Shown piece by piece: positions 16,373 to 61,650 of a DNA stretch of 64,000 nucleotides. The translations under genes and the position numbers were made by a program. Source of the DNA: Faecalibacterium sp. HTF-F. Lineage in GTDB: Bacteria > Bacillota > Clostridia > Oscillospirales > Ruminococcaceae. Each line of letters opens with the position of its first letter. The first letter of the stretch is position 1. The stretch is taken from NCBI RefSeq assembly GCF_023347535.1, contig NZ_CP094473.1:2232001-2296000 (forward strand). The letters are read 5' to 3'. The notes under the pieces are model-generated. The model made no database searches and had not been told where the DNA came from. It saw nothing but the letters and a program-made list of their open reading frames with translations.

Positions 16373-16419
16373 GCTTTTGAACCTGTAGGACACACAAAAC
16401 GCGGAAAAGAGAGGGAATC

Positions 16420-17100: not shown

Positions 17101-17109
17101 AGGTGCCGT

Positions 17110-39495: not shown

Positions 39496-39809
39496 TGAGA
39501 CAATTCTCCTTTCAAAACCGTTGGGATGCCGCAGAACATCTGCACGACGCACTCTGCCCGTGCGGCCAGCAGGCAGGCAAGCCTGCCCGCCGCCTCGCGG
39601 TCGGCACGCTGCTTTGGGTCCATCGGCACAACACCGCCGCCTACCTCGGTGGCGATGAGGATCTCGTATTCAGAAGCAAGGCGGTCTGCCAAGGCAGGCA
39701 GGTCGGCGGCATCTGCCGCCAGCTGCTGCACATCGGCCAGCGCCCTGCCGGGAAGCATTTGCGCAAAGGTGCGCTTGCCGCTGTAGAGCGGCCCGGTGAT
39801 AAAGATCAT
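39489..39809 (-). CDS. Short CobU-like P-loop protein (CobU')
   Basis: A 106-residue protein. It begins MIFITGPLYSGKRTFAQML, a P-loop, and ends ECVVQMFCGIPTVLKGE, matching the end of the full CobU encoded 0.7 kb upstream (DAVVRVVCGIPVYYKGVEK). EVGGGVVPMDPKQRADREAAGRLACLLA also matches the CobU family's EVGxGxVP region. It is only about 60% of CobU length and lacks the middle with the guanylylated histidine. It overlaps cobS by four bases and cobC by seven, so it is maintained in the translation chain. Kinase-only, regulatory and decaying-duplicate explanations all remain open. Confidence 0.75.
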   Translation of the reverse strand: MIFITGPLYSGKRTFAQMLPGRALADVQQLAADAADLPALADRLASEYEILIATEVGGGVVPMDPKQRADREAAGRLACLLAARAECVVQMFCGIPTVLKGELSQC

Positions 39810-46192: not shown

Positions 46193-47183
46193 GCTGCCAC
46201 CTCCAATCCGGGGCGAAGGGCCGCGCCGCCAGCGCAAAGGTCACGCCGGTGCGGGCAAATTTGTGAAAAACCAGCGGCCCGCCTGCAGCCAGCACTGCAG
46301 CGCGCTCGCAGACGTTATCCACGCCGGTGACGCTCTGCACAAAGGCCGAGGGCGTAAAGCTGCCGGGGGCCTGCCGCAGCTGTTCCGCCGTGAAAAACTC
46401 CACAGGCCAGCCTCGACTCTGGCAAAAGGCCAGAAGGCCCGCTTCGTTCTGTTTTAGATCGATGCTGGCCGCCGCCGCGATGCACTGCGGGGCAAAACCT
46501 GCCTGTGCGCAGAAGGCCGCAAAGGCTTCGGCCAGCGTGTCGGCGCCGGTGCCGCGCCTGCACCCCACCCCCAGCACGCCGATGTGCGGCACAAGATGCA
46601 AAGCATCTCCCGCCGGGCACAGGGTGAGGGCAAGTTCCGGGGTCGCTGCATCTTCTGCAAGGCCCGCAGGCGGGCTGCCCGCAATGGGCCAGTCGGATGC
46701 GAACCGCACCGTTCTGCCCGCCAGCAGTGCGCCGCTGACCTTTTTGATGCGCTCCGGCTCCAGCACGGCACAGTTCTGGTGTCTGGCCCATTCATCCACC
46801 GCAAACACACCGTTTGCGTCCGTGGCAGTGGTAATGACCGGCACCGCGCCGCACACAGCGGCCAGCCTCCGCGCCAGCTCGTTGGCCCCGCCCAGATGGC
46901 CGGAGAGAACGGGCACCGCAAAGCGTCCGCACTCGTCCAGCACCACCACCGCAGGATCAGACGCCTTGCTTTTGCAGTGGGGCGCAATGGCCCGCACCGC
47001 AATGCCCACCGCGCCCACAAAAATAAGGGCATCACTGTGTGCAAACTGCCGGGCCGTCCAGTCCGCAAGGCCCGGCTGCCCGGGCTCATGGCCGCAGCGG
47101 GCCACACTGCCGGGATATTCTGCGGCCAGCTTTTCCGCCAGCGCAAGGCCCTTTGCCGTAAAGGCAAGGTAGGCCCGGGTCAC
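46185..47183 (-). CDS. cbiG: Cobalt-precorrin-5A hydrolase CbiG
   Basis: A 332-residue protein that opens the delta-lactone ring and releases acetaldehyde. GAVGIAVRAIAPHCKSKASDPAVVVLDECGRF-type N-terminal block, VPVLSGHLGGANELARRLA, and the C-terminal CbiG domain (VGCRRGTGADTL, AAAASIDLKQNEAGL, VCERAAVLAAGG). The start is GTG at 47183, overlapping the cbiF stop (GTGA). Confidence 0.94.
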   Translation of the reverse strand: MTRAYLAFTAKGLALAEKLAAEYPGSVARCGHEPGQPGLADWTARQFAHSDALIFVGAVGIAVRAIAPHCKSKASDPAVVVLDECGRFAVPVLSGHLGGANELARRLAAVCGAVPVITTATDANGVFAVDEWARHQNCAVLEPERIKKVSGALLAGRTVRFASDWPIAGSPPAGLAEDAATPELALTLCPAGDALHLVPHIGVLGVGCRRGTGADTLAEAFAAFCAQAGFAPQCIAAAASIDLKQNEAGLLAFCQSRGWPVEFFTAEQLRQAPGSFTPSAFVQSVTGVDNVCERAAVLAAGGPLVFHKFARTGVTFALAARPFAPDWRWQHV

Positions 47184-47941
47184 TGGTCTGTCCCCCTGCG
47201 GAACTCGGTGGTAAAGGCCGGGTCGTACAGCTTGCTGCGCTCGTAGTTCCGGCCCAAAAAGTCACCCACCACGATGAGCGCCGTTTTGGTGATGCCCGCT
47301 GCATGAACGCTTTCCGCCAGCGTGCCCACAGTGCAGCGGACGGTCCTTTCTTCCGGCCATGTAGCCTTGTACACCACTGCTGCCGGGGTATCCGGCGTGT
47401 AGGCTCCGCCCGCCAGAAGTGCCTGCTGCACCTTTTCCACAAGGCCGATGGACAAAAAGATCACCATGGTCGCCCCATGGGCGGCAAGGCCTGCCAGCTT
47501 TTCCTTTTCCGGCACCGGGGTGCGGCCCTCCATGCGGGTGATGATGACGGTCTGGCTCACGGTGGGCAGGGTGTACTCGGCGTTCAGCGCCGCTGCCGCG
47601 CCGCAGAAGCTGGACACACCGGGGGTATCATCGTAGCGGATGCCCTCGGCGTCCAGCACATCCATCTGCTCCCGGATGGCTCCGTACAGGCAGGGGTCGC
47701 CGGTGTGCAGGCGCACGGTGGTGCGGCCTGCGGCTTCCATCTGCCGCATTACTGCCAGCACCTGTTCCAGCGTCATTTCGGCGCTGTTGTAAACCGCACA
47801 GTCCTCTCTGGCAAGGCCCAGCAGCGCCGGGTTGACCAGACTGCCCGCATAGATGATGCAGTCGGCTGCCTGCAGAAGGGCCGCACCGCGCCGGGTGATC
47901 AGGTCCGGAGCACCGGGGCCTGCGCCTACAAAATGTATCAT
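47180..47941 (-). CDS. cbiF: Cobalt-precorrin-4 C11-methyltransferase CbiF
   Basis: A 253-residue SAM-dependent tetrapyrrole methylase. Motifs: VHFVGAGPGAPDLITRRG-type N-terminus (IHFVGAGPGAPDLIT), CIIYAGSLVNPALL, RLHTGDPCLYGAIREQM, TPGVSSFCGAAAALNAEYTLP and VYKATWPEE. It begins four bases after the cbiL stop. Confidence 0.95.
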   Translation of the reverse strand: MIHFVGAGPGAPDLITRRGAALLQAADCIIYAGSLVNPALLGLAREDCAVYNSAEMTLEQVLAVMRQMEAAGRTTVRLHTGDPCLYGAIREQMDVLDAEGIRYDDTPGVSSFCGAAAALNAEYTLPTVSQTVIITRMEGRTPVPEKEKLAGLAAHGATMVIFLSIGLVEKVQQALLAGGAYTPDTPAAVVYKATWPEERTVRCTVGTLAESVHAAGITKTALIVVGDFLGRNYERSKLYDPAFTTEFRRGTDQ

Positions 47942-47945: not shown

Positions 47946-48650
47946 TCACTCCTTTACCAGAACGGTGGTAAAATAGCCCGGCTGGACCTGCGGCTGTCCG
48001 AGGGAAAGGTCCGGGCAGACCTGTTCATCCGGCAGGCCGCAGTTGCACACAAGGGCGCTGTTTTCAAGCCTGCCAGCCTGTTCCAGCGCAGCCAGCAAAG
48101 CGGGCAGCTGCCTGCCGGTCTTCATCAATACTTTGGTGCCGGGCGTTTCCAGCACGCGGCCCGCCCAGCTGCCCGGCGCAATGGTGAGCGGTGCATCCAT
48201 GCCGCCGGTCAGCGGCACATTCAGCCGCGCCGCCGCCGCACAGAAGCTTGGCACCCCCGCCGCCATGGCGGTGGGATAGCCCTCTGCTTCCAGAAGGCGC
48301 TGCAGATAGCCAAAGGTGGCATAGATGGAAACGTCCCCAAGGTTCAGCATGGCAGTGTCCTGCCCGGCATCCAGATAAGGCCGCACCGCCTGCACCGCCT
48401 CTTTGTGGGAAGCCGCCAACACGGCCGGGTCACGGCTCATGGCAAAGTGCAGCGGGACGATGGTCTTGCCGTCCAGCGCTTCTCCCAGCGCACTGCAGGC
48501 GATGTCCAGCGCCAGCATCTGGCCGGAAGAAGTCTGCGGCGCAGCCAGTACCGGGCATTTCCGGATCAGCCGCACCGCCTGCAGGGTCAGCAGCTCCGGG
48601 TCGCCGGGGCCTACGCTGACGCCGTAAAAGGTGCCTTTCAGTTCTGCCAT
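47946..48650 (-). CDS. cbiL: Cobalt-factor II C20-methyltransferase CbiL
   Basis: A 234-residue SAM-dependent methylase. Motifs: GTFYGVSVGPGDPELLTLQAVRLI, CPVLAAPQTSSGQMLAL, MLNLGDVSIYATFGYLQRLL, AAGVPSFCAAAARLNVPL. It acts right after cobalt insertion by CbiK. The start overlaps the BtuD-CbiD fusion gene by 13 bases. Confidence 0.94.
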   Translation of the reverse strand: MAELKGTFYGVSVGPGDPELLTLQAVRLIRKCPVLAAPQTSSGQMLALDIACSALGEALDGKTIVPLHFAMSRDPAVLAASHKEAVQAVRPYLDAGQDTAMLNLGDVSIYATFGYLQRLLEAEGYPTAMAAGVPSFCAAAARLNVPLTGGMDAPLTIAPGSWAGRVLETPGTKVLMKTGRQLPALLAALEQAGRLENSALVCNCGLPDEQVCPDLSLGQPQVQPGYFTTVLVKE

Positions 48651-50587
48651 TCCTTCATCAGCTCCTTTGCAATACAGGTCTCGCCCAGCGGGCCGTGCTG
48701 GTTGGAAAAGAGCACCGCGCCCACCCGGAATGCCCCGCCTACCCGTCGGTCCAGATGCATCTGGATGGCCGCAAGGATGCTTTCCAGTACCGGGCCGCGC
48801 AGCTGTGCGCCGTCCAGAATGTCAAGACAGGCATCCGTGGTGGCGGCATCCATCAGGGCAGCGCACACTTCGCGCCGGGCCCCGCACAGCGCCGCATGGG
48901 CACAGAACACCTCGGCACGGCCATCTGCCGTGTGGGAGTGGGTGTTCATGACCCCTGCCGCCAGCTTGCAGAGCTTGCCCACGTGTCCCACCAGAAGCAC
49001 CTGTTCAAATCCTGCCGTTGCCGCCATATCCAGCGTATCCCCGATGAAGTTGGAGGTCTTGACCACCGGGAACCGCTCAAACTGCGGCAGAGCGGAGGCC
49101 AGATAGTCCAGCCCGTAGTTGCCGGGGGCCAGCACCAGCCGCCGGGGCCCGGCGGCGGCTTTGGCCCGCAGCGCAGCCTGATTCATTTCCAGCTGGATGG
49201 TATCCAGAATCGCCTGCTGGCTCATGGGCTCCACGATGCCGCTGGTTCCCAGCACGGAAAGCCCGCCCTCCACCCCGATGTGCGGGTTGAAGGTGCGCTT
49301 TGCGGTCTCGGCACCGCCCTCGATGGAAATGGTCACTGCAAAGCCGCCGGTGTAGGCAGCATTTTCAGCTTCCCGTTCCAGTGCCTCGGCGATCATCCGG
49401 CGCGGCACATGGTTGATGGCAGCTTCCCCTACGGGCTGGTCAAGGCCGGGCTTCGTCACCCGGCCCACCCCCTCGCCGCCAAAGATGCGCACGCCGGGGG
49501 CATCCGGTTCCAGCACCACCGATGCAATCACCGGCAGGCCCGTGGTCACATCCACATCGTCGCCGCCGTCCTTGCGGATGGCACATGCGGCACCTGTGTC
49601 CGTTCTGCGGCACCAGAGGGGAGCCACCTCCACCACGATGCCCTTGGGCGTGCGCAGGGCCACCGTTTCCGGTTCGCGGCCGGTCAGCAGCAGACGCGCC
49701 GCCCCGGCAGCCCCCAGCGCGGCACAGGTGCCGGTGGTGTAGCCGCAGCGCAGCAGCTTCTGGCCGCTGCGGACGTAATGCTCAAACTGCGGCTTTCCGG
49801 CAGGTGCCTTTTCGGCTTCCGGCTCCGGTGTGCCGAACAGAGCCGTGTACTGCTGTTCGGTCAGGCCGTACAAAGCGCAGATGTTCTCCGGCTGAAACGC
49901 CTGTTCCGGGGTCAGCACGCCGGAAACACCGCCGGGCGAAACGCACACCACCGTGTCCGCTATTTTTTCGGCCAGCTCCAGCTCGTGCAGGCTCAGGATC
50001 ACCGCCAGCTTTTGGGTGTGTGCAAGCGTTCCGAGGATGGTGAGCAGTTCAATTTTGCCCTTGATATCCAGAAAAGAGGTCGGTTCGTCCAGCAGGATCA
50101 CTTCCGGCTGCTGGCACAGGGCCCGGGCCAGCAGGATGCGCTGGCGCTGACCGTCGCTGATGCGGTTAAAATCCCGGTCTGCCAGCTGCGCCGCGCCCAC
50201 CAGCTCCAAAGCTCTGTGCACCTGCTGCCTGTCCCCGGCAGACAAAATGCCCAGCCGTCCGGTGTAGGGATAGCGCCCCGCCGAAACAAAATCAAAGCAG
50301 GTGGTCAGCTCCATCCGGCGGCTGTGCGGGGCCATGAGGGCCAGCTTCTGCGCCCGCTGGATACCGGTGTAACCGGCAAGGCTTCTGCCTTCCAGCAGCA
50401 CCGTGCCGCCCATGGGGGCCAGCTGACCCGCCAGTGTGCGCAGCAAGGTGGATTTGCCTGCGCCGTTGGGGCCGATGAGGGTCAGGATCTGGCCCGGCTG
50501 CACCCCGAGGCAAATATCCGAGAGCAGCGGTGTCTTGCCGTAGCCGATGGCAAGACCCTGTGCTCCGCACAAAAAATGTTCCTTCAT
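48638..50587 (-). CDS. btuD-cbiD: Fused corrinoid ABC ATPase and CbiD methyltransferase
   Basis: One uninterrupted 649-residue frame. Residues 1-~255 are a FecCD/BtuD-type ATPase: Walker A GPNGAGKSTLLRTLAG, signature ISDGQRQRILLARAL, Walker B VILLDEPTSFLD, switch His in LSLHELE. A ~20-residue linker (FGTPEPEAEKAPAGKP) leads to CbiD (~276-649), the cobalt-precorrin-5B C1-methyltransferase: CGYTTGTCAALGAAGAARLLLTG, DGGDDVDVTTGLPVIA, GEGVGRVTKPGLD, GTSGIVEPMSQQAI, HVGKLCKLAAGVMNTHSHTADGR. The ATG at 50587 overlaps btuC by four bases. The fusion ties the uptake ATPase to a cytosolic biosynthetic enzyme in fixed stoichiometry. Confidence 0.93.
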   Translation of the reverse strand: MKEHFLCGAQGLAIGYGKTPLLSDICLGVQPGQILTLIGPNGAGKSTLLRTLAGQLAPMGGTVLLEGRSLAGYTGIQRAQKLALMAPHSRRMELTTCFDFVSAGRYPYTGRLGILSAGDRQQVHRALELVGAAQLADRDFNRISDGQRQRILLARALCQQPEVILLDEPTSFLDIKGKIELLTILGTLAHTQKLAVILSLHELELAEKIADTVVCVSPGGVSGVLTPEQAFQPENICALYGLTEQQYTALFGTPEPEAEKAPAGKPQFEHYVRSGQKLLRCGYTTGTCAALGAAGAARLLLTGREPETVALRTPKGIVVEVAPLWCRRTDTGAACAIRKDGGDDVDVTTGLPVIASVVLEPDAPGVRIFGGEGVGRVTKPGLDQPVGEAAINHVPRRMIAEALEREAENAAYTGGFAVTISIEGGAETAKRTFNPHIGVEGGLSVLGTSGIVEPMSQQAILDTIQLEMNQAALRAKAAAGPRRLVLAPGNYGLDYLASALPQFERFPVVKTSNFIGDTLDMAATAGFEQVLLVGHVGKLCKLAAGVMNTHSHTADGRAEVFCAHAALCGARREVCAALMDAATTDACLDILDGAQLRGPVLESILAAIQMHLDRRVGGAFRVGAVLFSNQHGPLGETCIAKELMKEWQN

Positions 50588-51600
50588 CGTGCCCCCTCCT
50601 GACTGCGCCGCACCAGCAGCCAGATGACCACCGGTGCGCCGAACACGGCCGTGACCGAGCTGATGGACAGCTCCGTGGGCGCAAACAGACTGCGGGCCAG
50701 CAGGTCGCAGAACAGGCAGAAAGCCGCACCGCCCAGACAGCACCCGGGCAGCACATGCAGCGGCTTTGCGCTGCCCAGCAGCTGCTTTACAAGGTGCGGC
50801 ACCGCGATGCCCACAAAGGAGATCGGCCCTGCAAAGGCAGTGACACAGGCGGCCAGCAGACTGGAAAGCAGCACCAGCACCGCCGAGAAGAGCCTGACGT
50901 TCACGCCAACACTGCGGGCGTACTCCTCGCCCATCTGGTAGGCCGCCATGGGTTTGGAGAGCAGAAAGGCAGCCGCCAGCACAGGCAGCGTCACCAGCGC
51001 CGCCGCCTGCACGTTGGCCCATGTCATGCCGGAAAAGCTGCCCTGCGACCAGTTGTGCAGGTTGACGATGTTGGAGTCCTGTGCAAAGGCCACCACGATA
51101 TCGGTGACAGCGGAACAGATGTAGCCGATCATTACACCGCAGATGACCAGAATGCTCATGCGCTGCACCCGCCGGGCCACCGCCAGCACAAAGGCCATGG
51201 CCGCCATGGCACCCGCAAAGGCAGCCACAATCATGGTGGCCGAGCTGGTCAGCATCCCGCGGTCCAGAAACACCACCATGGTCAGGGCCACCGCCAGCTT
51301 TGCGCCGCTGGAAACGCCCATGACAAAGGGCCCGGCAATGGGGTTTGCAAAAAAGGTCTGCAGAAGGTATCCCGCTGCACTGAGGGCTGCCCCCAGCAGC
51401 GCCGCCATGACCGCGCGGGGCAGGCGCAGCTGCAGGATGATGTTCCCCGCAAGCGCATCGCCGCCCTTGCCCAGCAGCGCCGTCAGCACCGCACCCGGTG
51501 CAAGGGATACGCTGCCCCAGAACAGGTTCAGCGCAAAAAGCACCGCCACGGCTGCCGCAAGGGCAATATAGGCGGCTGCAAGGCGTCTGGTACGGGTCAT
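50584..51600 (-). CDS. btuC: Corrinoid ABC transporter permease BtuC-like
   Basis: A 338-residue FecCD-family permease with about ten spans. Typical: LRLPRAVMAALLGAALSAAGYLLQTFFANPIAGPFVMGVSSGA, VNLHNWSQGSFSG, GPISFVGIAVPHLVKQLLG and the C-terminal ELSISSVTAVFGAPVVIWLL. The corrinoid assignment rests on operon context, because iron-siderophore and heme permeases belong to the same family. The btuF gene precedes it and the ATPase-CbiD fusion follows with an ATGA overlap. Confidence 0.88.
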   Translation of the reverse strand: MTRTRRLAAAYIALAAAVAVLFALNLFWGSVSLAPGAVLTALLGKGGDALAGNIILQLRLPRAVMAALLGAALSAAGYLLQTFFANPIAGPFVMGVSSGAKLAVALTMVVFLDRGMLTSSATMIVAAFAGAMAAMAFVLAVARRVQRMSILVICGVMIGYICSAVTDIVVAFAQDSNIVNLHNWSQGSFSGMTWANVQAAALVTLPVLAAAFLLSKPMAAYQMGEEYARSVGVNVRLFSAVLVLLSSLLAACVTAFAGPISFVGIAVPHLVKQLLGSAKPLHVLPGCCLGGAAFCLFCDLLARSLFAPTELSISSVTAVFGAPVVIWLLVRRSQEGAR

Positions 51601-51630: not shown

Positions 51631-52770
51631 TTAATCCACATGGGTGAGGAATTTCAGGGTACCGGCGGCAGGTGTACCCTCGGTGAACACCCGGTTCATA
51701 TCTACGATCAGGTCTGCCAGCTCCATGCTCTGCTGGAACAGGCTCTGGGCGGTGCACCACACCTGCCCTTCCTTCACCGCTTTGAACTCGTTCAGCAGCG
51801 GGAAACGCTCGGTCAGCTGGCTCACCGATGCGATCATGCCCTCGATGGCGCTGTTGTAGATGAGCACGTCGGCATCCTTTGCGCCTGCATAGAAGTCCTC
51901 AAGCGGCAGGTTCATGGTAGCAAGGCTGTTGCCATTGTCCGTCAGGTCCGCAAAGACATAGCTGCCGCCCGCCATTTCGATCATGCGGGCCACATAGTCA
52001 CTGCCTTTGCGCACAGTGGCAAGGTTGTTGGTGGTCAGCGAGAAGAAGGCACAGCTTTTTCCCGTGGGTTTTTGCGAGAGGATGGGCTGAACGGCTGTCT
52101 CCTGCGCGGAAAACACCTGCTCGGCCTGTTCTTCCCTGCCCAGCAGGATGCCGTAAAGCTTGATCCACTCCATGCGGGCCAGCGGGTCGCTCTCGTAGCT
52201 GGAACGCTCCACCAGCACCGGGATGCCAAAGTGTTCCAGCTGTTCCTTTACCTCCGGCGTATGCAGGATCATGGTATTCTCAATGGCAAGGCGGCAGCCC
52301 GCCGCCAGGATCTGCTCGTAATCCGGGGCGCTGTACTTGCCTGCATACGCGATTTTTTCCTCTTCCATGGCCTGCTGCACCGCGGGCAGATACCAACCCT
52401 CGGCCTTGGTGCCGGAAAAGGCCACGCTGTCCAGTGCATCCAGATGCAAAAGCAGATCCATCACCGAGGTGGAGACCAGATAAATATTCTCCACCGGCTG
52501 GCGCAGCACAGTCACATCAGCGGGCAGACCGTCCACCTCCGCAGCATCTTCCGGCACAACAAGGAACCGTGCATCCGACTCCGCAATGGTCAGCATGGTA
52601 TAGCCGCCCTCATAGCAATCCGCCGTGAACTGCTGTGCATAGTCCAGCTGGTAATGATGGGAGAAAACAAGACTTTCCGTATTGGCAGGCTGAGCCTTGC
52701 TGCCGCAGCCGGTCAGCGTCAGCGCCGCAGCGGGGATCAGTTTCAGAAATTGGTTGCGAGTGATTTTCAT
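51631..52770 (-). CDS. btuF: Corrinoid-binding lipoprotein BtuF-like
   Basis: A 379-residue substrate-binding lipoprotein (lipobox ALTLTGC near residue 22) of the BtuF/FhuD family. Features include the helical-backbone layout, TVLRQPVENIYLVSTSVMDLLLHLDALDSVAFSGTK near the ligand lobe, YEQILAAGCRLAIENTMI, and VLVERSSYESDPLARMEWIKLYGILLG. It delivers ligand to BtuC. The ribosome site (AAGGAG six bases before ATG) lies inside a dispersed repeat. Ligand identity, corrinoid rather than heme or siderophore, is inferred from its neighbours. Confidence 0.85.
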   Translation of the reverse strand: MKITRNQFLKLIPAAALTLTGCGSKAQPANTESLVFSHHYQLDYAQQFTADCYEGGYTMLTIAESDARFLVVPEDAAEVDGLPADVTVLRQPVENIYLVSTSVMDLLLHLDALDSVAFSGTKAEGWYLPAVQQAMEEEKIAYAGKYSAPDYEQILAAGCRLAIENTMILHTPEVKEQLEHFGIPVLVERSSYESDPLARMEWIKLYGILLGREEQAEQVFSAQETAVQPILSQKPTGKSCAFFSLTTNNLATVRKGSDYVARMIEMAGGSYVFADLTDNGNSLATMNLPLEDFYAGAKDADVLIYNSAIEGMIASVSQLTERFPLLNEFKAVKEGQVWCTAQSLFQQSMELADLIVDMNRVFTEGTPAAGTLKFLTHVD

Positions 52771-52773: not shown

Positions 52774-52876
52774 TAACTCCTTCCGTCACGGCTTACGCCG
52801 TGCCACCTCCCTCATAGAGGGAGGCTTTGGCAGTACGGTAAAGTTTATCTTTTTGCCAAAGAAGGTGACTGGAGGA
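52774..52876. repeat. Dispersed palindromic repeat, copy B (core 52774-52830)
   Basis: Inverted, nearly identical copy of 7210-7266. On the minus strand it ends GGAAGGAGTTA four bases before the btuF ATG and so supplies the Shine-Dalgarno sequence. The right part (52840-52876, GACTGGAGGAGTC) is more diverged. Confidence 0.85.
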
Positions 52877-52877
52877 G

Positions 52878-53726
52878 TCACTTCAAGCTTGCAGAATCAA
52901 AGGTCAGCGTGTACTCGATCTCGTGGGGGGTGCTCATGGCCACGGTGTCGGCGGTGACGTCCAGTGCCGTGTCCAGCGCGGCAACGGGGATCTCAAAGGT
53001 GGAATTGCCCTCAGTGTTGGTGGGCAGATACTTCTCGCCGTCCACGAGCATATAGTCATAGTTGGGGCTGCTCCACACGATGGCAGCGGTCATTTTGCCG
53101 TCTGCCACGGTCAGGGCGGCGGGGCTCTCCACGGTGGCACGGCCGGAGCCGCCTTCCAGCGTCACCTCACAGGTGTAGGTGCCGTCGGCGGGAGCTGCGG
53201 TGCCAGCCTGTTGGACCGCATTGCGCACGCTGACGACATGATCGTACCACTTGCCCTTGGTGCCCAGAATGGCCAGATCAAAGTCGGCATCCACAGCAGA
53301 GACCGGGATATCAAAGCCGTACACCTCCTCCGAGGTGCCGTCGGAGTAGGTGACGGTGTCGGTGGTGGGCTGCAGCCAGTCGGACGCGTTGGCTGCGGCG
53401 TCCGCAGCCTTGCCCAGATACAGGTTGACGATGTGGGTGGACGCCAGACTGACGTGGAAGGTCATCTGGCCATTCTCCACGGTCAGGGTGCCCTTGCCAT
53501 TGCAGGCTTCGTTGGCATGGAACATGGAGCTGTCGGTGTCAAAGTCGGCGGTATACACACCATCCGGCAAAGCGGCGGTCTCAACGGCAGAAGAAGCCAC
53601 GGAAGAAGCAGCCTCCGAGCTGGCAGCGCCGGACGCCGCAGAAGATGCCGTGGAAGAAGCGCCGCAGCCCGCCAGCAGACTCAGTGCCAGAGAAGCAGCG
53701 ACAACACAGGAAAAAACGCGTTTCAT
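52878..53726 (-). CDS. Lipoprotein with two tandem NEAT-like beta domains
   Basis: A 282-residue lipoprotein (lipobox SLLAGCG near residue 21) with a long Ala/Ser linker (~22-50). Two related ~110-residue domains follow: DGVYTADFDTDSSMFHANEA to ILGTKGKWYDHVVSVRNAV, and DGTYTCEVTLEGGSGRATVE to AMSTPHEIEYTLTFDS. Strand order, the YDYMLVDGEKYLP segment and the SxxxPxxxxYxLxFD ending resemble iron-transport-associated NEAT-type modules that bind heme. Here, between cbiK and btuF, a corrinoid, cobalt-porphyrinoid or heme ligand is plausible but unproven. It has its own promoter. Confidence 0.7.
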   Translation of the reverse strand: MKRVFSCVVAASLALSLLAGCGASSTASSAASGAASSEAASSVASSAVETAALPDGVYTADFDTDSSMFHANEACNGKGTLTVENGQMTFHVSLASTHIVNLYLGKAADAAANASDWLQPTTDTVTYSDGTSEEVYGFDIPVSAVDADFDLAILGTKGKWYDHVVSVRNAVQQAGTAAPADGTYTCEVTLEGGSGRATVESPAALTVADGKMTAAIVWSSPNYDYMLVDGEKYLPTNTEGNSTFEIPVAALDTALDVTADTVAMSTPHEIEYTLTFDSASLK

Positions 53727-53761
53727 AGGAAATACCTCTACATTATAGAAAATCAGCTTTT

Positions 53762-53790
53762 ATTATACCATTGTTCCGATAAAAAATGAA
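53762..53790 (-). promoter_or_regulatory. Second promoter of the cobalamin cluster
   Basis: Minus strand: TTCATT (53785-53790), 17 bases, TATAAT (53762-53767). A further TATAAT is at 53742-53747. The -35 overlaps the base of the preceding terminator. Confidence 0.6.
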
Positions 53791-53837
53791 CCCTCTCCAC
53801 CGGGTGCCGCAAAGCGGCCGCGAAACGGAGAGGGTTC
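53781..53837 (-). terminator. Terminator after cbiK
   Basis: GAACCCTCTCC/GGAGAGGGTTC stem enclosing an inner GCGGCCGC/GCGGC structure, followed by ATTTTTT on the minus strand. Confidence 0.88.
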
Positions 53838-53843
53838 GTTTGA

Positions 53844-55076
53844 TCAACCGTTCAGAGAATCGATTGCCGCCTTGGTGTGGGCGACATACAGCTTCTGGAC
53901 ATCCTCGATCTCACCCAGACCAGCGATCTGGCAGTCAACCGACTCAAATGCACCGGAAGCGTTGAACATGCTCAGCCAGGAATCATCATCCGAACCGGCC
54001 ATGTCGTTGTTGGCGTGATCGCCGGCAACCACCATCAGCGGGCGCAGGATGACCTTGGTGTAGCCCGCAGCCTTAACAGCCTCGATGACGTTCTCGCAGG
54101 CAGTTTCCTCCGGCTCGCCCTCAACGGTGCCAATGAACACACTGTCATAGCCCAGAGTCTGCATGGTGGTCTGCATCTGGCTGTAGCTCACCTTTGCGGT
54201 GTGAGAGGTGCCGTGGCCCATAAAGACAAAGGCGGTCTTGTCCGCGGCAGCGGCATCCAGACTGTCGTAGCCGGCTTCCTTCACGGCAGCAGCGGTGACA
54301 GCCTTGGCAACGTCTTCCTTATCCTGATTGATGATGGTGGCATCGGAGCCGACCTCGCCCAGCAGGGGCTCAGCCACAGCGACAGATTCAAACTTGTCGC
54401 GGTAGGTGTCGATCATTTCCATCATCTCGTCGTACTCAGCGCCGTGCATCAGGTGGGTGGGCTGGACGACAAGGTTCTTCACGCCGTTTGCCACAGCGCG
54501 GTTCATGGCCTGCTGCATATTATCGATCTTTTCGCCGTCACGGGCCTGCACATGGTTGATGATGATCTGTGCGGTGAAGGCGCGGCGCACGCTCCAGTCC
54601 GGGTATGCGGCCTGCAGAGCATCCTCGATGCCCTTGATGTCCTTCACGCGGCTGTCGTTGAAGGAGGTGCCGAAGGAGACCACCAGCAGCTCGTTGTCGC
54701 CGATGTCGTCCTGATTGCGGGCATCGTCCTTGGAGGCATCGCCGGTGTCACGGCCAAAGTAGTCAGGGTCGGCGTTCTCGCCTTCCACCAGTTCCTTCTG
54801 GGTGTCGGTCAAAGCATCCCATGCAGCCTTGGCGGCTTCGCACTGAGCATCGGTGTCATCATTGCGCTCCTGCACATAGATGGCATCGATCAGGTCTGCC
54901 ACATTCTTTGCTGCCATTTCGTCAGCCTCCTCGCTGCTCGCTTCGCTGGAAGCGGCAGACGCAGCGGTGCTGGATGCAGTGCCGGAAGCAGCACCGCCGC
55001 AGCCGGTGAGCACGCCGGCGCACAGGGCCAGAGCCGTAACAGCTGCAGCCAGCTTCTTGGTTTCGATCTTTCTCAT
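53844..55076 (-). CDS. cbiK: Sirohydrochlorin cobaltochelatase CbiK, lipoprotein form
   Basis: A 410-residue protein that starts at 55076 after GGAAAGGA. It has a signal peptide with lipobox VLTGCGG (~25), an Ala/Ser/Glu linker, an extra helical region (~45-130) and then the class II chelatase fold: LLVVSFGTSFNDSRVKDIKGIEDAL, RAFTAQIIINHV, VVQPTHLMHGAEYDEM, FVFMGHGTSH (metal-ligand His) and VVAGDHANNDMAG (second catalytic His). It inserts cobalt into sirohydrochlorin. The export signal is unusual because the substrate is made in the cytosol; a periplasmic CbiK is known in Desulfovibrio. It is controlled by the upstream cobalamin riboswitch. Confidence 0.93.
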   Translation of the reverse strand: MRKIETKKLAAAVTALALCAGVLTGCGGAASGTASSTAASAASSEASSEEADEMAAKNVADLIDAIYVQERNDDTDAQCEAAKAAWDALTDTQKELVEGENADPDYFGRDTGDASKDDARNQDDIGDNELLVVSFGTSFNDSRVKDIKGIEDALQAAYPDWSVRRAFTAQIIINHVQARDGEKIDNMQQAMNRAVANGVKNLVVQPTHLMHGAEYDEMMEMIDTYRDKFESVAVAEPLLGEVGSDATIINQDKEDVAKAVTAAAVKEAGYDSLDAAAADKTAFVFMGHGTSHTAKVSYSQMQTTMQTLGYDSVFIGTVEGEPEETACENVIEAVKAAGYTKVILRPLMVVAGDHANNDMAGSDDDSWLSMFNASGAFESVDCQIAGLGEIEDVQKLYVAHTKAAIDSLNG

Positions 55077-55140
55077 TGTCTTGTCCTTTCCTGTGGATAA
55101 ATTGCGGCCGAACCGAACAAAGGGTACAGGAAAGTGAGGT

Positions 55141-55188
55141 AAAAAAGAGGCCCTTTTGTCCTGCGGATGGCATGACAAAAAGACCTCT
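55141..55188 (-). terminator. Riboswitch expression-platform terminator
   Basis: On the minus strand AGAGGTC.TTTTTGTC pairs with GACAAAAGGGCCTCT and is followed by TTTTTT. It lies between the cobalamin aptamer and the cbiK start. Confidence 0.85.
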
Positions 55189-55250
55189 GATTTTTTCAGG
55201 GCTTTTTGGTACAACCAATTCCTCGTGATCTGGGGCTCAGGCCCCCGTAC

Positions 55251-55445
55251 CAACAGCAGGCAGGTTTCCTGACTGAAAGATCGCCGCCCGGCGCCGCCTT
55301 CCCGGAGCAATGCTCCAGTGGCCGGTGCGCACAGCACCCTGACGCGGACTCCCTTATCACAGTGACGAGATCGTGCGGGATCTGCACCCGCTTCCCTTTT
55401 ACCCTTCCCACCGCGCAAAGCGGCAGAAGGCACCTGCTGTTTTCT
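55251..55445 (-). ncRNA. Cobalamin riboswitch controlling cbiK
   Basis: Read on the minus strand the region has the conserved B12-aptamer blocks in order: P1 half ACAGCAGGTGCC, AAAGGGAAGCGGGTGCAGATCC, CACTGTGATAAGGGAG, GCCACTGG, CCGGGAAGGCGG, then the B12 box GTCAGGAAACCTGCC, and the closing P1 half GCCTGCTGT. A GGGGCCTGAGCCCC hairpin and an intrinsic terminator follow before cbiK. Binding of adenosylcobalamin is expected to end transcription prematurely. Confidence 0.95.
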
Positions 55446-55461
55446 GTTCAGTTCGTCCGGA

Positions 55462-55708: not shown

Positions 55709-55793
55709 GGGCGTGTTCCCGAGTGGCCAATGGGGACAGACTGTAAATCTGCTGCTTTCAGCTTCGGTGGTTCGAATCCACCCGCGCCCACCA
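55709..55793 (+). tRNA. tRNA-Tyr (anticodon GTA), CCA encoded
   Basis: Acceptor GGGCGTG/CGCGCCC, discriminator A at 55790, CCA 55791-55793. The anticodon stem CAGA/TCTG with loop CTGTAAA gives GTA. A long variable arm (GCTGCTTTCAGC) and T arm GGTTCGAATCC are as in bacterial tyrosine tRNA. Confidence 0.95.
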
Positions 55794-56923: not shown

Positions 56924-58189
56924 TCAAAGTTCCATATCCTGCCCACGCTTGCGGTTTTTCTGCGGCACATTCATGGTGCGCTCCTGCTTGAGGGCGAGAA
57001 TCTTTTCCAGAAAGCTGCGCACCAGTTCAGGCGCACGGTGGAGCGCGTCCAGATAGGGCTTCACTTCATACCAGAGCTCATGATACTTTTGACCCCAATG
57101 AGCAGCTTCCTTCTTGGCGGTGGAAAGTTCTTCTTTCAGGCGGCGGTTCTCCACGTCCATCATATAGCCGTGGTCGGCCTGCTTTTTCAGTTTGGAAAAT
57201 TCCTCCTCGGTCAGCGAGTAGTTGCCGAGGAAGGTGCGCTTGCCGATATAATCCAGATCGCGCGCATGAATGAGGGCTTCTTTCGTGAGCGTGGCCTTTT
57301 TCTGCACAGCGGCAAGTTCCTTCTCCTTTTTGGAGAGGGTCTGACTGGTTTTGGCAAGCGACTGCGCCTTTTGGTCGGCTTGGGCGGTCAGGCTGTCCAG
57401 CCGTTCCTGCTCCCGTTGAACTTTGAACTGGGTGACGGTCAGGTGTTCTTCGGTGCTGCCGCGCTCGCCGCGCTCTACATCGGTGTACCCGGCATTGTGC
57501 ATATAGTTGAAGAAATCGTCTTGCAGGATGCTGTACGACTTCTTCAGGACTGGTTTGCCGTTCTTTTGCAGGACGGGCTCTCCAGCATCGTCCAGCAGGG
57601 GCTTGGATGCCCACTTCTTGCTCCGGCTGACCTGCATGACGGTCTCCTTGACTGTGCCGACCAGTGCCTTGTCCTTGCAGCGTTTCGACCACAGGATCTG
57701 CTTTTCCACCACAGGTACATAGACCACATGGAGGTGGTAGTGGTAAACTTCGCGGCCTAGTGCTTCGGTCATGGCACGGTTGATCTCGTCGGCGTGCATG
57801 ACTGCCGAGAGGATATACTGCTCACCGCCCACGATCTGAACAGCAGCTTTGTAGGCATCCTCATAGAACTGCTTGGCGAACTCGTAGCCACCGTGATTGT
57901 CGAAATAGGCAGAGTTGACATCAAAGACAAGCTCGCAATAATGGGTGGCATCCGGCTTCAGGCCGCGCGTTGAAATCGTACCAGCGGTTTCCAGTTGGGC
58001 GAACAGGTCAGTGTAGCTGGCGGTTGGCTTTTTGAAGTGGACGTTCCATGCAGCGCGCTGGGGGATAATATCGGGGTTCCGATAGCTGTCCTTTTCGCGC
58101 TCGTTGTGCTGCTGGGTGTTACCAACGGCCTTATCCGAAACGGCGAGGTTTCGGACACTTGTGCGGTCAATACCATCATTTCTTGCCAA
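56924..58189 (-). CDS. mobV: MobV/Pre-type relaxase
   Basis: A 421-residue plasmid mobilization protein. Diagnostic: the N-terminal QHNEREKDSYRNPDI motif, YCELVFDVNSAYF, and the metal-binding REVYHYHLHVVYVPV. The C-terminal half is coiled-coil (QEQERLDSLTAQADQKAQSLA, KKEKELAAVQKKA). Start is TTG at 58189 with AAAGGAGG seven bases upstream; the open frame further upstream lies in oriT and repeat DNA. Its nick site should be in the inverted repeat at 58263-58307. Confidence 0.9.
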   Translation of the reverse strand: MARNDGIDRTSVRNLAVSDKAVGNTQQHNEREKDSYRNPDIIPQRAAWNVHFKKPTASYTDLFAQLETAGTISTRGLKPDATHYCELVFDVNSAYFDNHGGYEFAKQFYEDAYKAAVQIVGGEQYILSAVMHADEINRAMTEALGREVYHYHLHVVYVPVVEKQILWSKRCKDKALVGTVKETVMQVSRSKKWASKPLLDDAGEPVLQKNGKPVLKKSYSILQDDFFNYMHNAGYTDVERGERGSTEEHLTVTQFKVQREQERLDSLTAQADQKAQSLAKTSQTLSKKEKELAAVQKKATLTKEALIHARDLDYIGKRTFLGNYSLTEEEFSKLKKQADHGYMMDVENRRLKEELSTAKKEAAHWGQKYHELWYEVKPYLDALHRAPELVRSFLEKILALKQERTMNVPQKNRKRGQDMEL

Positions 58190-58252
58190 AGGGCATCCCT
58201 CCTTTCGGGGTTTATCGGGAGGTAACGGGGAACGGAGATGCACTTCTGCGGA

Positions 58253-58307
58253 AGTGTAATAACCCACTATAACACTTTCATCCCTATGGGCTGCAAAGTG
58301 TAGTGGG
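58253..58307 (-). other. oriT candidate for the MobV relaxase
   Basis: On the minus strand TATAGTGGGTTATTACACTT resembles the MobV consensus with the nick inside TAGTGTGTTA. It is bracketed by an inverted repeat, CCCACTA..CACTTT (58263-58278) and AAAGTGTAGTGGG (58295-58307), as at pMV158-type origins. Confidence 0.65.
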
Positions 58308-58359
58308 CTCTTCGAGGACTCTCCGAGGGGGAACGTCTCCTGCGGGAGAGCTACGATCA

Positions 58360-58545
58360 AGTTCGCACAATGCGAACTTGATTGCTCCGTACGTATCTGA
58401 AAAAATTGCGTACGGACTTCAAATAACCTGTACGGTTCGTACGGTGTACGAAAATCCAAAATACAAACGATAACACGTTTTAATTTTCGCTGATTTGCCG
58501 TACAGGTGCGTACAAGTACAGACCGTACAGGTTGTACGAACTTCT
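58360..58545. repeat. GTAC-rich iteron-like region, candidate replication origin
   Basis: Begins with the palindrome CAAGTTCGCA CAA TGCGAACTTG (58360-58382). Nine or more copies of a CGTACGG/TGTACGR-type motif follow in both orientations (58387, 58408, 58429, 58438 and others to ~58545), with an AT-rich core in the middle (58450-58495). Placed directly beside the helicase gene, it looks like a replication origin. Confidence 0.6.
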
Positions 58546-58566
58546 TCCGTGAAAAAAATGCACTTT

Positions 58567-59883
58567 TTACGGGCAGGGGTGGACAAGAGGTTCGATGCCT
58601 ACAAAGCCCCGCACCCTGCGGCCACCGGGCAGGTAGATGTTGTTGGTGGCTTCAAGGTTATAGCGGCGGTCATTCTGGCGCAGTTCGGCGCTGAAACGGA
58701 TCGCCGATACGCTGTGGCAGGCGTTGTCCTCGCACCACTGCTTGTAAATGTCGTAGAACTCCTTGGAGCTGATGGAGTAGTCCGCCTTGAAGCGGAAGTA
58801 GCCCTCGGACTCCATGAAGTCGATGACGTTGTTGCTGCTGCGCTTGATGGTGTCCACGTTGGCAGCGGCTCGTTCGCTGACCGTGAAGCGGAAATCGTTC
58901 TGCACCAGCCGGTGCAGCCCTTCCTGACACCACAGCAGGATGCCCTCCAACTCGGCGCACATCTTCTCCACAAGGAAGGGGTCATCCGTGCGGTCGGTGG
59001 GCTTGTCCTTGGTGGTCAGGATGAGCTGGCGGCGGAAGAAGCCGTCCGAATGGTCATACAGCGAGGTCAACGCACCGTTGCCGAAACAGAGGAATCGGGC
59101 GTAGATGTCCCGCTGGTAGCTCTGGACACCTTTTCGTTCCAAGTCCAGCTTGGCTTCGGCGGTCACGATGGTCTTAATATAATTCGTCTTGGGCAGGGCG
59201 TTCATATCCATGTCATCGTCGATCATCAGCAGGCGGCGTTCCAGATCGACACGGGCAAAGCGGTTGTTCTCCACCTTCTGGACGCTGCCGTTGCTGGCGG
59301 CATCTCCCATGAGTCGCTTGAGCACCAGCCCGATGCGGGACTTGCCCTCGCCGCCCTTGCCGACAATGAGCATCATCTTCTGCCCTTTGGTGCTGGGAAT
59401 CAGGCAGTAGCCCAGATACTCCTGCAAGGTGGGGATGTCGGCATCGTCCAGCAGCTCGTGCAGAAAGGTCAACCAACGGTCAGGGGTGGCGGCTTTGGGG
59501 TCATACCTCACAGGCAGGCGGTTCTGGCAGAACAGCCGACTCTCCTGAAAAGAGCCGTTCGGCAGATGGTACACTCCGTTCTGGAGGTGGATGCAGTCCT
59601 GCTCGATGGGGAACGGGTCGGAAAAGGCCAGCAGCTTGATGGTCTCCAGAATGTTGGTGACCTTTTTGGACAGGCCGGAGGTGACATATTCCTCGATGTT
59701 CTCCAAGATGCGCTGCTTGATCTCGCTTTCGTCCTCCACCGGTCCGTCCAGCGTGTACAGTGTTCCGTTGACGCATTTCAGCGGCCACTGTTCCAGAAAG
59801 GCACGTCCAAACTGGACTTCGTCAATTTTCTTACCGTTGTACCAGTCCGGCCATAAAGGGTTGCGGGAAATGTTTTTCTTCAT
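58567..59883 (-). CDS. D5/SF3-type helicase-primase protein (phage/plasmid)
   Basis: A 438-residue protein. A D5_N-like region (~50-150, LLDDADIPTLQEYLGYCLIP) is followed by an SF3 helicase: Walker A IVGKGGEGKSRIGLVL, Walker B LERRLLMIDDDMDMN, sensor-1 FLCFGNGALTSLYD and arginine finger DGFFRRQL. A winged-helix C-terminal domain ends in GRRVRGFVGIEPL. It should unwind the element's origin. AAAGGAGAG precedes the ATG. It works with the CHC2 primase encoded just upstream. Confidence 0.9.
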   Translation of the reverse strand: MKKNISRNPLWPDWYNGKKIDEVQFGRAFLEQWPLKCVNGTLYTLDGPVEDESEIKQRILENIEEYVTSGLSKKVTNILETIKLLAFSDPFPIEQDCIHLQNGVYHLPNGSFQESRLFCQNRLPVRYDPKAATPDRWLTFLHELLDDADIPTLQEYLGYCLIPSTKGQKMMLIVGKGGEGKSRIGLVLKRLMGDAASNGSVQKVENNRFARVDLERRLLMIDDDMDMNALPKTNYIKTIVTAEAKLDLERKGVQSYQRDIYARFLCFGNGALTSLYDHSDGFFRRQLILTTKDKPTDRTDDPFLVEKMCAELEGILLWCQEGLHRLVQNDFRFTVSERAAANVDTIKRSSNNVIDFMESEGYFRFKADYSISSKEFYDIYKQWCEDNACHSVSAIRFSAELRQNDRRYNLEATNNIYLPGGRRVRGFVGIEPLVHPCP

Positions 59884-59907
59884 GTGGTGGCTCTCCTTTC
59901 AAAAAGT

Positions 59908-59942
59908 AAAGTGGTGATTATCATAATGATAAGCACCACTTT
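59908..59942. promoter_or_regulatory. 35-base inverted repeat between primase and helicase genes
   Basis: AAAGTGGTG.TTATCAT and ATGATAA.CACCACTTT are near-perfect arms with virtually no loop. Either a protein-binding dyad or an mRNA stem. Confidence 0.55.
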
Positions 59943-59956
59943 AGGTGAATGAATCG

Positions 59957-60559
59957 TCAGGCGCACTTTGCCAGAGCAAGGCGGTCGGTGCGCTCCTCCA
60001 GCATCAGCAGGTACGACCCGGACAGCAGCTGTGCGGCGGCAGCGGCCTTCTGCTGGGGTGTTCCAAATGCAACGCAGTCCGTCAGGTGCTCGATGGTCTC
60101 GGTCATGTGGAGGGCTTCCACGAACCGCTCGTCCAGCGGTTCTTCCGGGCTGGCGGGCTTGTAGCGCTCCTACCAGTCGTGCAGCAGGTCGAGATAATCG
60201 GTCAGCACCCGCAGGCAGTAGGCGATGTCTGCCCACTGCTCGTCCGTCAGGCCACGCTTGGGCGGCGGCAGGGCGATGGCATTGGCGGGCGGCTTATCCG
60301 GGTCAAGCCCGAAGTCACTTGCGAGCTTCTCGGCGGCTTGCCGGGGGTTCAGGTCGAACAGCTTGGCGGTGAGGTCGATGGCATCACCGTTGGCTCCGCA
60401 AGCGAAGCAGTAATAATAGGTGTCGTTCAGCTTCATGCTGGGGTCGCTGTCAGAATGGAACGGACAGCACACCATGCCATGGCGGTCAGGCTCCATGCCG
60501 TACATCTCTCCCACCTGCCGAACGGTGATGGCGGACTTGACAGTTTGATACAGGCTCAA
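59957..60559 (-). pseudogene. CHC2 zinc-finger primase gene interrupted by an in-frame TAG
   Basis: The frame starts at TTG 60559 (AAAGGAG eight bases upstream; an ATG two codons earlier is too close). It carries a DnaG-type CHC2 zinc finger: GMVCCPFHSDSDPSMKLND, YYYCFACGANGDAIDLT. After VLTDYLDLLHDW a TAG stop occurs at 60170-60172. The same frame then continues ERYKPASPEEPLDERFVEAL and LAKCA to a TGA at 59957, with unchanged coding character. A TAC-to-TAG change (Tyr) would explain it. The truncated product is 129 residues and the full product would be 200. It primes replication of the element. Confidence 0.8.
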
Positions 60560-60588
60560 GGGCATTTCTCCTTTGTTTCGTGCGTTGC

Positions 60589-60630
60589 ACCAGAGTACCC
60601 CCCCAAAGTGGGAACTCTGGTGTTTTTTTT
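60589..60630. terminator. Hairpin between divergent primase and XRE genes
   Basis: ACCAGAGT/ACTCTGGT stem followed by eight T residues on the plus strand. On the minus strand it lies in the primase leader. Confidence 0.6.
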
Positions 60631-60758
60631 GCTTCCTGCCTGAATATACGGAAAATTTTGCAGAAAGGGTGAAAAAGCGGCAAAACTGCAACGGAAAAAG
60701 AAAAAAGCCCTTACTGGTTGCAGGACTGCAACAGCAAGGGTGGAGAGGTGACCGTATA

Positions 60759-60787
60759 TTGAACAAAACGGCAGAGCGTACTATAAT
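60759..60787 (+). promoter_or_regulatory. Promoter of the XRE-sigma gene pair
   Basis: TTGAAC (60759-60764), 17 bases, TATAAT (60782-60787). Confidence 0.8.
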
Positions 60788-60819
60788 GAGAAAAAAGATC
60801 AAAAAGGAGGGCCGACCAC

Positions 60820-61650
60820 ATGGCACAGGAATATCTGCCCGCACCGTCCAACGTCCGTCTTGCGGACTTGATGAAAGAGCACAACATCAGCCAACCGGAG
60901 CTTGCCAAGGAGATCGGCTGCTCTAAAAGCACTATCAGCCGTTTTATCAGTGGTGCAAAAGGGACGCTGACCCATGAGCAGGTGCTGAAAATCGCAAGGC
61001 TGTTTAATGTGTCCACGGATTTCCTGCTGGGAGAAACCAACATCCCCGACCGCAAAAATTACGACATTGCCGAACTGGGCTTGTCCGTAGAAGCTGCAAA
61101 GAACCTCTACACAGGGCGTGTCAATACAGAGGTGGTCAACCTGCTGTTGGAAAACGCCCGCTTTGCAGAGCTTACTTACCGCATAGCGCAGTATTTTGAT
61201 GATACCTTTGCATCCGGTATCGCGGCACAGAACGCCATGCTCACGACATTGAGCACCCTGCTGCGCACAAGGGTCAAGACCCCGGAGGCAGCCAAAGCCG
61301 CAAAGGACATCAGCCTTCGGAGAAAGCCGGTGTACCAAGGCGACCTTGATGATATTGAAATGTACTTCATGGCGGCAATCAAGGAAATCAAAAAGGGTAT
61401 CGGGAGCCATTACGCCGAGCAGGAAGCCATGAGCAAGAAAGTGGCAGAGAAGATGTTCACCGAATTGACTAAAGGGCAGGATGTGCAGCACCCAACGATT
61501 ACGGCAGAGCAGTTGACAGATGCAATGTTGGACAGCGTTTCGGGCATGGAAGGAGCTACGCCGGAAGCGCTGGAACAGCTGCGGAACGGTCTGCTGGGAA
61601 TCTTGCAGTCTGCCGCAGAGCAGGAAAACGCCCATGAAGCAGACGAATGA
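60820..61650 (+). CDS. XRE-family regulator of the mobile element
   Basis: A 276-residue protein. N-terminal Cro/CI-type helix-turn-helix (LADLMKEHNISQPELAKEIGCSKSTISRFISGAKG, VLKIARLFNVSTDFLLGE). The long helical C-terminal part has no family I recognise. AAAAAGGAGG precedes the ATG. The downstream sigma-like gene overlaps by 17 bases. It probably represses the element's replication and mobilization genes. Confidence 0.9.
   Translation: MAQEYLPAPSNVRLADLMKEHNISQPELAKEIGCSKSTISRFISGAKGTLTHEQVLKIARLFNVSTDFLLGETNIPDRKNYDIAELGLSVEAAKNLYTGRVNTEVVNLLLENARFAELTYRIAQYFDDTFASGIAAQNAMLTTLSTLLRTRVKTPEAAKAAKDISLRRKPVYQGDLDDIEMYFMAAIKEIKKGIGSHYAEQEAMSKKVAEKMFTELTKGQDVQHPTITAEQLTDAMLDSVSGMEGATPEALEQLRNGLLGILQSAAEQENAHEADE

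Follow-up and report, generated by a model that had tools for sequence, protein, structure and literature searches.

A probable surface relay for cobalt insertion and ring import at the head of a Faecalibacterium cobamide operon

The window analysed here is a 64,000-nucleotide stretch of the Faecalibacterium sp. HTF-F genome (assembly GCF_023347535.1, contig NZ_CP094473.1, positions 2,232,001 to 2,296,000, forward strand). On its minus strand, a cobalamin riboswitch precedes genes for a CbiK-type chelatase, a two-domain NEAT-like protein and a Peripla_BP_2 substrate-binding protein, followed by a FecCD permease, an ATPase fused to CbiD and a long run of corrin and nucleotide-loop genes. We propose that the head of this operon is probably an Isd-like relay that captures a tetrapyrrole ring at the sirohydrochlorin stage, loads it with cobalt outside the cell and then imports the product. 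The proposal draws on gene content, gene order, export signals, active-site residues, gene fusions and the absence of matches to HemB, HemC and a second CbiK and of any over cut-off to CobA; from these we infer the cargo, the extracellular insertion of cobalt, the order of handover and a role for H268 of the NEAT-like protein as metal ligand. The set of genes itself is confirmed; it is widespread, and it is tied to the synthesis of corrin.

In the proposed sequence of events, scarcity of cobamide would let the operon run through its riboswitch. Membrane-anchored CbiK, outside the cell, would bind a scavenged ring of the sirohydrochlorin stage and add cobalt. The cobalt ring would then be taken by the first NEAT-like domain (N1), passed to the second (N2) and handed to the binding lipoprotein, from which the permease and ATPase would import cobalt-sirohydrochlorin, the substrate of CbiL. 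The corrin operon would finish the cobamide.

Features of the operon head, in order of transcription:
55242-55452, minus strand: cobalamin riboswitch (RF00174, 104.1 bits, E 5.6e-25), ahead of the operon
53844-55076, minus strand: CbiK-type chelatase lipoprotein, 410 aa (PF06180, E 7.8e-72; lipobox LTGC)
52878-53726, minus strand: two-domain NEAT-like lipoprotein, 282 aa (lipobox LAGC; PF05031, 33.2 bits, cut-off 32.8)
53220-53570, minus strand: NEAT-like domain N1, residues 53-169, with conserved W160-Y161
52893-53192, minus strand: NEAT-like domain N2, residues 179-278, with H268xxxY272 (PF05031 match 199-277)
51631-52770, minus strand: substrate-binding lipoprotein, Peripla_BP_2 (E 2.4e-25; lipobox LTGC), BtuF-like by context only
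50584-51600, minus strand: FecCD-type permease, BtuC-like (PF01032, E 1.6e-78; BtuC model 207 bits, below its cut-off of 334)
48638-50587, minus strand: importer ATPase fused to CbiD (ABC_tran 22-171, CbiD 279-545; TIGR00312 cbiD, 390 bits)

An initial annotation of positions 52774-55445 had noted three consecutive lipoprotein genes at the head of a B12 operon, and the three lipoboxes (LTGC, LAGC, LTGC) bear this out, the third gene lying outside that interval. Its suggestion that the set captures or metallates a tetrapyrrole outside the cell and feeds the pathway fits most of our tests, namely the lack of matches to HemB and HemC and of one over cut-off to CobA, the sole and apparently exported CbiK, the gene order and the fusions. 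As to the cargo, given there as corrinoid or tetrapyrrole, a tetrapyrrole at the sirohydrochlorin stage appears more likely and a finished corrinoid less so.

A corrin pathway with no detected ring synthesis

Downstream of the importer, the genes for corrin and nucleotide-loop synthesis follow in this order:
47946-48650, minus strand: CbiL (TIGR01467, 171.2 bits, cut-off 163.25)
47180-47941, minus strand: CbiF (TIGR01465, 331.9 bits)
46185-47183, minus strand: CbiG (CbiG_N, CbiG_mid and CbiG_C)
45410-46237, minus strand: CbiH (TIGR01466, 300.3 bits), an open reading frame (ORF) whose start is not fixed
44667-45908, minus strand: CbiJ (PF02571, E 1.4e-66), an ORF whose start is not fixed, with the domain from residue 169
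43483-44697, minus strand: CbiE-CbiT fusion (TIGR02467 and TIGR02469 over cut-off)
42140-43855, minus strand: CbiA, an ORF with the domain from residue 124
41070-42263, minus strand: CobT (PF02277, E 2.2e-115)
40555-41076, minus strand: CobU (PF02283, E 5.3e-34)
39806-40558, minus strand: CobS (PF02654, E 1.1e-47)
38896-39552, minus strand: CobC-like phosphatase (PF00300; TIGR03162, 107 bits, below its cut-off of 162.9)
37946-39007, minus strand: CbiB (TIGR00380, 235.5 bits)
36882-37958, minus strand: CobD (TIGR01140, 276.4 bits, below its cut-off of 290.55)
35383-36885, minus strand: CbiP (NF001989, 635.3 bits)
34712-35386, minus strand: CbiC (PF02570, E 1.6e-73)

The corrin and nucleotide-loop genes expected of a salvager are thus complete, with the CobC and CobD models below cut-off. 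A short CobU-like piece at 39489-39805 adjoins CobS in addition to the full CobU (ORF 39489-40634; PF02283, E 4.9e-9, residues 306-373).

The genome is a single contig of 2.78 Mb and 99.48% complete. HemB and HemC had no match in it (HemA, HemL, HemD and SirC were not searched), and the CobA model TIGR01469 found nothing over cut-off, ringing below cut-off only at CbiF, CbiH and CbiL. The same models matched control genomes in 11 of 14 cases for HemB, 11 of 14 for HemC and 13 of 14 for CobA. PF06180 matched once in the whole genome, at the CbiK lipoprotein, and no second CbiK match was found (the search did not extend to stand-alone CbiX or to cobalt importers). Judged by these models, the genome appears to hold a complete corrin pathway with neither a ring of its own nor a cytoplasmic CbiK. 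Because CbiL and the enzymes that follow it are kept, the ring would have to enter at or before cobalt-sirohydrochlorin; the order of the pathway follows PMC7242693 and PMC7689651.

The sole CbiK carries an export signal and both catalytic histidines

The lipobox sets this CbiK apart from the cytoplasmic enzymes of its family, and about 100 residues separate it from the CbiK domain. The protein scores 192.7 bits against the NCBIfam equivalog NF047852, short of the cut-off of 400. H288 and H354 align with H145 and H207 of Salmonella Typhimurium CbiK, the catalytic histidines of that enzyme (PMC7689651), and both positions are histidine in 77 of 77 relatives.

Export was called by a rule of our own, a lipobox pattern plus hydrophobicity, rather than by SignalP. 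Applied to CbiK proteins classed as cytoplasmic (n = 65), the rule found no lipobox and 7 "other" signals; it called 20 of 20 proteins classed as exported. We also considered a cytoplasmic CbiK made from an internal start. Fusions rule this out because they place CbiK between the export signal and NEAT (loci L054 and L060) or behind NEAT (L057). Together, these features suggest that cobalt would be inserted outside the cell.

A different reading of the same protein, which we judge unlikely, is that the relay only binds and delivers: the exported CbiK would be a retired chelatase serving as a binding protein, and cobalt would be inserted elsewhere or already be in the scavenged ring. A CbiK relative found outside the cytoplasm, FetB (9b86), is labelled heme-binding in the PDB, and a review places FetB products at the surface of Porphyromonas gingivalis. 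Against retirement stand the retention of both catalytic histidines in all 77 relatives, the lack of any other CbiK match in this genome and the description of FetB itself as a chelatase that inserts manganese into protoporphyrin (PMC13402209).

Two NEAT-like domains, one with a histidine in a candidate ligand motif

The two-domain protein had been called NEAT-like, and model matches now back the name: PF05031 is passed narrowly here, and it reaches E 0.01 or better in 54 of 57 sequences in alignment A3 (best E 5.6e-11), which consists of this protein and 56 of 59 candidate rows, three having been excluded by hand. A further alignment, A4, holds 23 hand-picked rows. N1 and N2 are two different domains (94% probability by profile comparison). 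Against the PDB, the N1 profile gave weak matches to solved NEAT domains (best 4h8p, E 0.046), the N2 profile alone gave one likely NEAT entry (3sz6, E 0.96), and the two together gave 4h8p and 4h8q at E 0.05. The single sequence searched against the PDB returned antibodies. A genome search with PF05031 found no match despite the hmmscan pass and was equally silent in 14 of 14 control genomes; it is not used as evidence. In a protein search with the NEAT-like protein, the best 120 of 8000 matches were nearly all 96-100% identical, with no distant relatives among the matches listed.

Cobalt is suited by histidine as a ligand. Among the 96 N2 domains that reach the position, 91 have H268 (the exceptions are 2 Y, 2 V and 1 K) and all 96 have Y272. 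The motif of N1, W-Y-D-H/R, keeps its W-Y in 95 of 95 rows covering the position, and 74 more rows stop short of it. Heme-binding NEAT domains carry a serine and a YXXXY motif whose first tyrosine is the iron ligand (PMC7815599). N2 carries HxxxY instead of this S/YXXXY signature, which suggests that H268 may stand in place of the NEAT tyrosine as a metal ligand.

A binding lipoprotein and importer of the Isd type

The third lipoprotein had been named BtuF. No model backs that name: the NCBIfam BtuF model does not match it, and its family match is to Peripla_BP_2. As a single sequence it has no PDB relative at E 0.01; as a profile its nearest entry is Lmo2184 (5joq, E 7e-9), which we take to belong to a NEAT heme system. 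The genes for the FecCD permease and ATPase lie directly 3' of the binding-lipoprotein gene, giving the binding lipoprotein plus ABC importer of an Isd-type system. By model the set does not qualify as a BtuFCD importer, BtuF having no match and BtuC staying below its cut-off.

The set is conserved as a cassette

N2 alone, run against species genomes, matched at least 597 stretches, of which 564 were confirmed and the best 80 kept (the 80 loci). Among them, the closest relatives of the operon belong to Faecalibacterium species, with a DNA identity of about 77% for the best. The initial annotation had proposed checking whether the three genes co-occur elsewhere, and they do: CbiK is present in 77 of the 80 loci, a binding protein in 77 and a permease in 73. 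In 75 of 77, CbiK and N2 share either an ORF or a strand, in the latter case no more than 1 kb apart. All four genes are visible in 70 loci, and each of these 70 has them in the order CbiK, NEAT, binding protein, permease. This rules out chance neighbours; conserved across loci, the set is not a product of chance. CbiK in these loci (n = 77) has a lipobox in 52, another predicted signal in 21 and none found in 4.

Neighbours in the cassette are also fused. CbiK is joined to NEAT in 11 of the 80 loci, NEAT to the binding protein in 6 and the ATPase to CbiD in 10, two of the last in genomes titled Atopobiaceae and Coriobacteriaceae. In a sample of the class Clostridia, L054, L057 and L060 carry N1 fused to CbiK; a full binding protein is joined to N2 in L054, L057, L059 and L063. 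Read together, the fusions trace a chain from CbiK through N1, N2 and the binding protein to the importer and a corrin enzyme.

The riboswitch recurs as well. The RF00174 model was run on seven related loci, all chosen from loci already showing a B12 box, and in each of the seven a cobalamin riboswitch precedes CbiK. In 52 of 74 searchable loci a B12 box is found near the start of CbiK, at most 700 nt ahead of the ORF and at most 150 nt inside it; counted over both strands of all 80 loci, the pattern matches 57 times.

HemB was tested in 50 of the 80 named loci, hand-chosen towards isolates and long contigs, and had no match in 25, including all eight of L095-L102 (Gemmiger, Faecalibacterium and Oscillospiraceae MH27-2). 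Within up to 10 kb on each side, cbi or cob genes stand at the cassette locus in 24 of the 25 carriers lacking HemB versus 5 of the 25 with it (Fisher 4e-8, not corrected for descent). We read the cassette in the former as the way into an obligate salvage pathway and in the latter as optional salvage, in species also able to make the ring.

Several loci depart from the common layout. L065 encodes an 804-residue protein (2162-4576) with three NEAT-like stretches, two nearer N2 and one nearer N1, and a binding-protein stretch at residues 686-801 (E 9.5e-16), followed by a separate full binding protein; because that stretch is partial, L065 was left out of the count of NEAT and binding-protein fusions. 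L146 has a second N1+N2 protein about 6 kb downstream of the cassette (16197-17378). L136 and L139, metagenome genomes titled Atopobiaceae and Coriobacteriaceae, hold the cassette with both the CbiK-NEAT and the ATPase-CbiD fusion, which suggests transfer between phyla.

Exported CbiK among 293 Clostridia genomes

Among 293 Clostridia genomes, PF06180 matched in 95, HemB in 78 and CbiD in 97. (At least one genome, L138 and G230, seems to be present both here and among the 80 loci.) N2 occurs in 16 of the 97 genomes with CbiD versus 0 of the 196 without (Fisher 8.5e-9, not corrected for descent), and 15 of the 16 N2-bearing genomes have an exported CbiK. The case that would have spoken against the initial annotation, a NEAT-like gene widespread without B12 genes, was therefore not found, as 16 of 16 N2 genomes have CbiD.

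HemB is missing from 28 of the 97 genomes with CbiD. Five with weak CbiD and no TIGR01469 match were left out and three with CobA (two of them also with HemC) were removed, leaving 20 corrin genomes without HemB, HemC or CobA. The sole CbiK is exported in 13 of these, this genome included, with a lipobox in 12. Of the genomes with CbiD, HemB and a full-length CbiK (n = 48), 6 have an exported copy, and 4 of those 6 also have a second, cytoplasmic CbiK. Exported CbiK is thus associated with the absence of HemB (13 of 20 versus 6 of 48, Fisher p 3e-5, descent ignored).

A FecCD permease accompanies CbiK in loci of 6.9 kb or more in 14 of 18 exported cases, 5 of 9 cytoplasmic cases without HemB and 1 of 29 cytoplasmic cases with HemB. 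L050, L048, L047 and L088, which encode cytoplasmic CbiK and lack HemB, HemC and CobA, have one in the CbiK locus; it perhaps imports the metal-free ring.

We classified 85 of 104 CbiK places, leaving out 19 weak and mostly short CbiX-like matches, and 82 entered a tree; the export class was set by hand for G000 and G272 (exported) and G089 (not). Export takes 4 changes on this tree and a single clade is rejected (p-AU 0.0013), so that export of CbiK, as predicted by our rule, arose more than once. The largest group of exported proteins comprises 15 rows (support 100/95), each with a NEAT-like match in its CbiK locus, one of them weak. Outside this group, exported CbiK of L087, L091 and L037 adjoins a Peripla_BP_2 protein that also matches SLH; in L091 the SLH match stays below cut-off. 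Pfam confirmed FecCD in two of the three, L087 and L037, and phmmer showed it in L091; CbiD was found by Pfam in L087 and L091, and the L037 stretch holds CbiF- and CbiH-like methylases. NEAT had no match in these three CbiK loci, and N2 none in their genomes.

Weighing the proposed relay

Several results weigh against the relay as we propose it. The single-sequence NEAT matches lie near the cut-off. HemB is present in the other 25 of the 50 tested carriers, so need alone cannot explain the set; completeness is not given for the carriers and many are metagenome assemblies, so some HemB absences may be gaps. Among the 20 corrin genomes without HemB, HemC or CobA, 6 have a cytoplasmic CbiK (L052 and L053 besides the four named above) and 1 has only a weak, unclassified match. 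G199 and G242 (L037 and L063) have HemB, HemC and CobA, yet their sole CbiK match is exported; a role of CbiK confined to the outside of the cell does not explain this. On the tree, the link between export and HemB yields only 4 independent pairs (median p 0.5), too few for the test to reach 0.05, and the link with HemB loss is therefore suggestive. The portions of the literature consulted on the topic do not document sirohydrochlorin that is free in the gut.

Two other functions were weighed for the whole set, and we consider both improbable. The first is a heme or iron acquisition system that sits in a B12 operon by happenstance. The NEAT domains speak for it, as does Lmo2184 as nearest solved relative of the binding-protein profile, and FetB-type chelatases act on porphyrins. 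It is opposed by the cobalamin riboswitch here and in the seven preselected loci, by the confinement of N2 to genomes with CbiD in the 293-genome sample, by the ATPase-CbiD fusion and by HxxxY in place of YxxxY. The second is ordinary B12 uptake with extra surface proteins that catch finished corrinoids (cobinamide or cobamides), to which the BtuC-like permease, the riboswitch, HemB in half of the tested named carriers and the use of surface lipoproteins for B12 uptake in gut Bacteroides would all be suited; this reading leaves the conserved chelatase and the CbiK-NEAT fusion unexplained and provides no substrate for this genome's corrin pathway.

Beyond the relay in this genome, we tentatively entertain a broader possibility, to which we give somewhat less credence: cobalt insertion, an early step of anaerobic B12 synthesis, may have shifted to the cell exterior. 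Gut Clostridia such as Faecalibacterium may live on sirohydrochlorin leaked by neighbours, metallate it at their surface and pass it along a NEAT relay, with the NEAT metal ligand changed from tyrosine to histidine to accommodate cobalt rather than ferric heme and with CbiK export having evolved several times.

Relation to known systems

The proposed relay resembles the Isd/NEAT heme relay, in which surface NEAT domains pass a tetrapyrrole to a binding lipoprotein and ABC importer. It differs in its cobalamin riboswitch, chelatase, HxxxY motif, lipoprotein anchor and downstream corrin operon. CbiK-family chelatases outside the cytoplasm have precedents in FetB (PDB entry 9b86, a CbiK relative in our PDB search, and the P. 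gingivalis FetB of the review) and in the chelatase 2xvx, which we take to be the periplasmic CbiK of Desulfovibrio vulgaris. The same search returned a Salmonella CbiK entry named cobalt chelatase; 1qgo is presumably the cytoplasmic CbiK of Salmonella. That enzyme shares the family and the catalytic histidine pair, whereas the exported form has an export signal and an N-terminal extension and is fused to or adjoins NEAT and the importer. FetB is discussed with heme and protoporphyrin, and in the parts of those sources available neither a NEAT relay nor a corrin operon is reported with it.

Predicted precorrin-2-type salvagers (Shelton et al., PMC6461909) have corrin and nucleotide-loop genes without the early steps, a pattern that this genome appears to share as far as HemB, HemC and CobA go. 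In the sections available, that work defines the phenotype, verifies only the 5-aminolevulinic acid (ALA) type and does not name uptake machinery. P. gingivalis is described as lacking the steps to precorrin-2, and precorrin-2 salvagers are put at 0.6% (PMC8123684). A NEAT survey makes no mention of cobalt, cobalamin or a chelatase, and a NEAT review none of cobalt or cobalamin. In literature that largely excludes subscription papers, we found no paper on CbiK with NEAT and a lipoprotein, or on a NEAT domain with cobalamin and a riboswitch. The parts are known separately; their combination, and extracellular insertion of cobalt, are not described in the literature searched.

If the proposal is right, it would name an uptake route for the precorrin-2-type salvagers, a class which the available sections of the literature know only from missing genes. 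The B12 status assigned to Faecalibacterium would change as well: a table in a review, whose layout is unclear in the copy available, lists F. prausnitzii in its prototroph row, and the gut reconstruction behind that table, in the part available, counts genes from CbiK on and not the early ring genes. NEAT proteins would gain a new cargo, and a ring intermediate would become a traded good in the gut.

Features upstream of the operon

Beyond the riboswitch lies a tRNA gene (55709-55790), near mobile-element-like genes. The mobile-element-like stretch at 56924-62299 encodes a Mob_Pre relaxase, a D5/DUF5906 protein, a DnaG-type zinc finger, a helix-turn-helix (HTH) regulator and a sigma-70-like protein.

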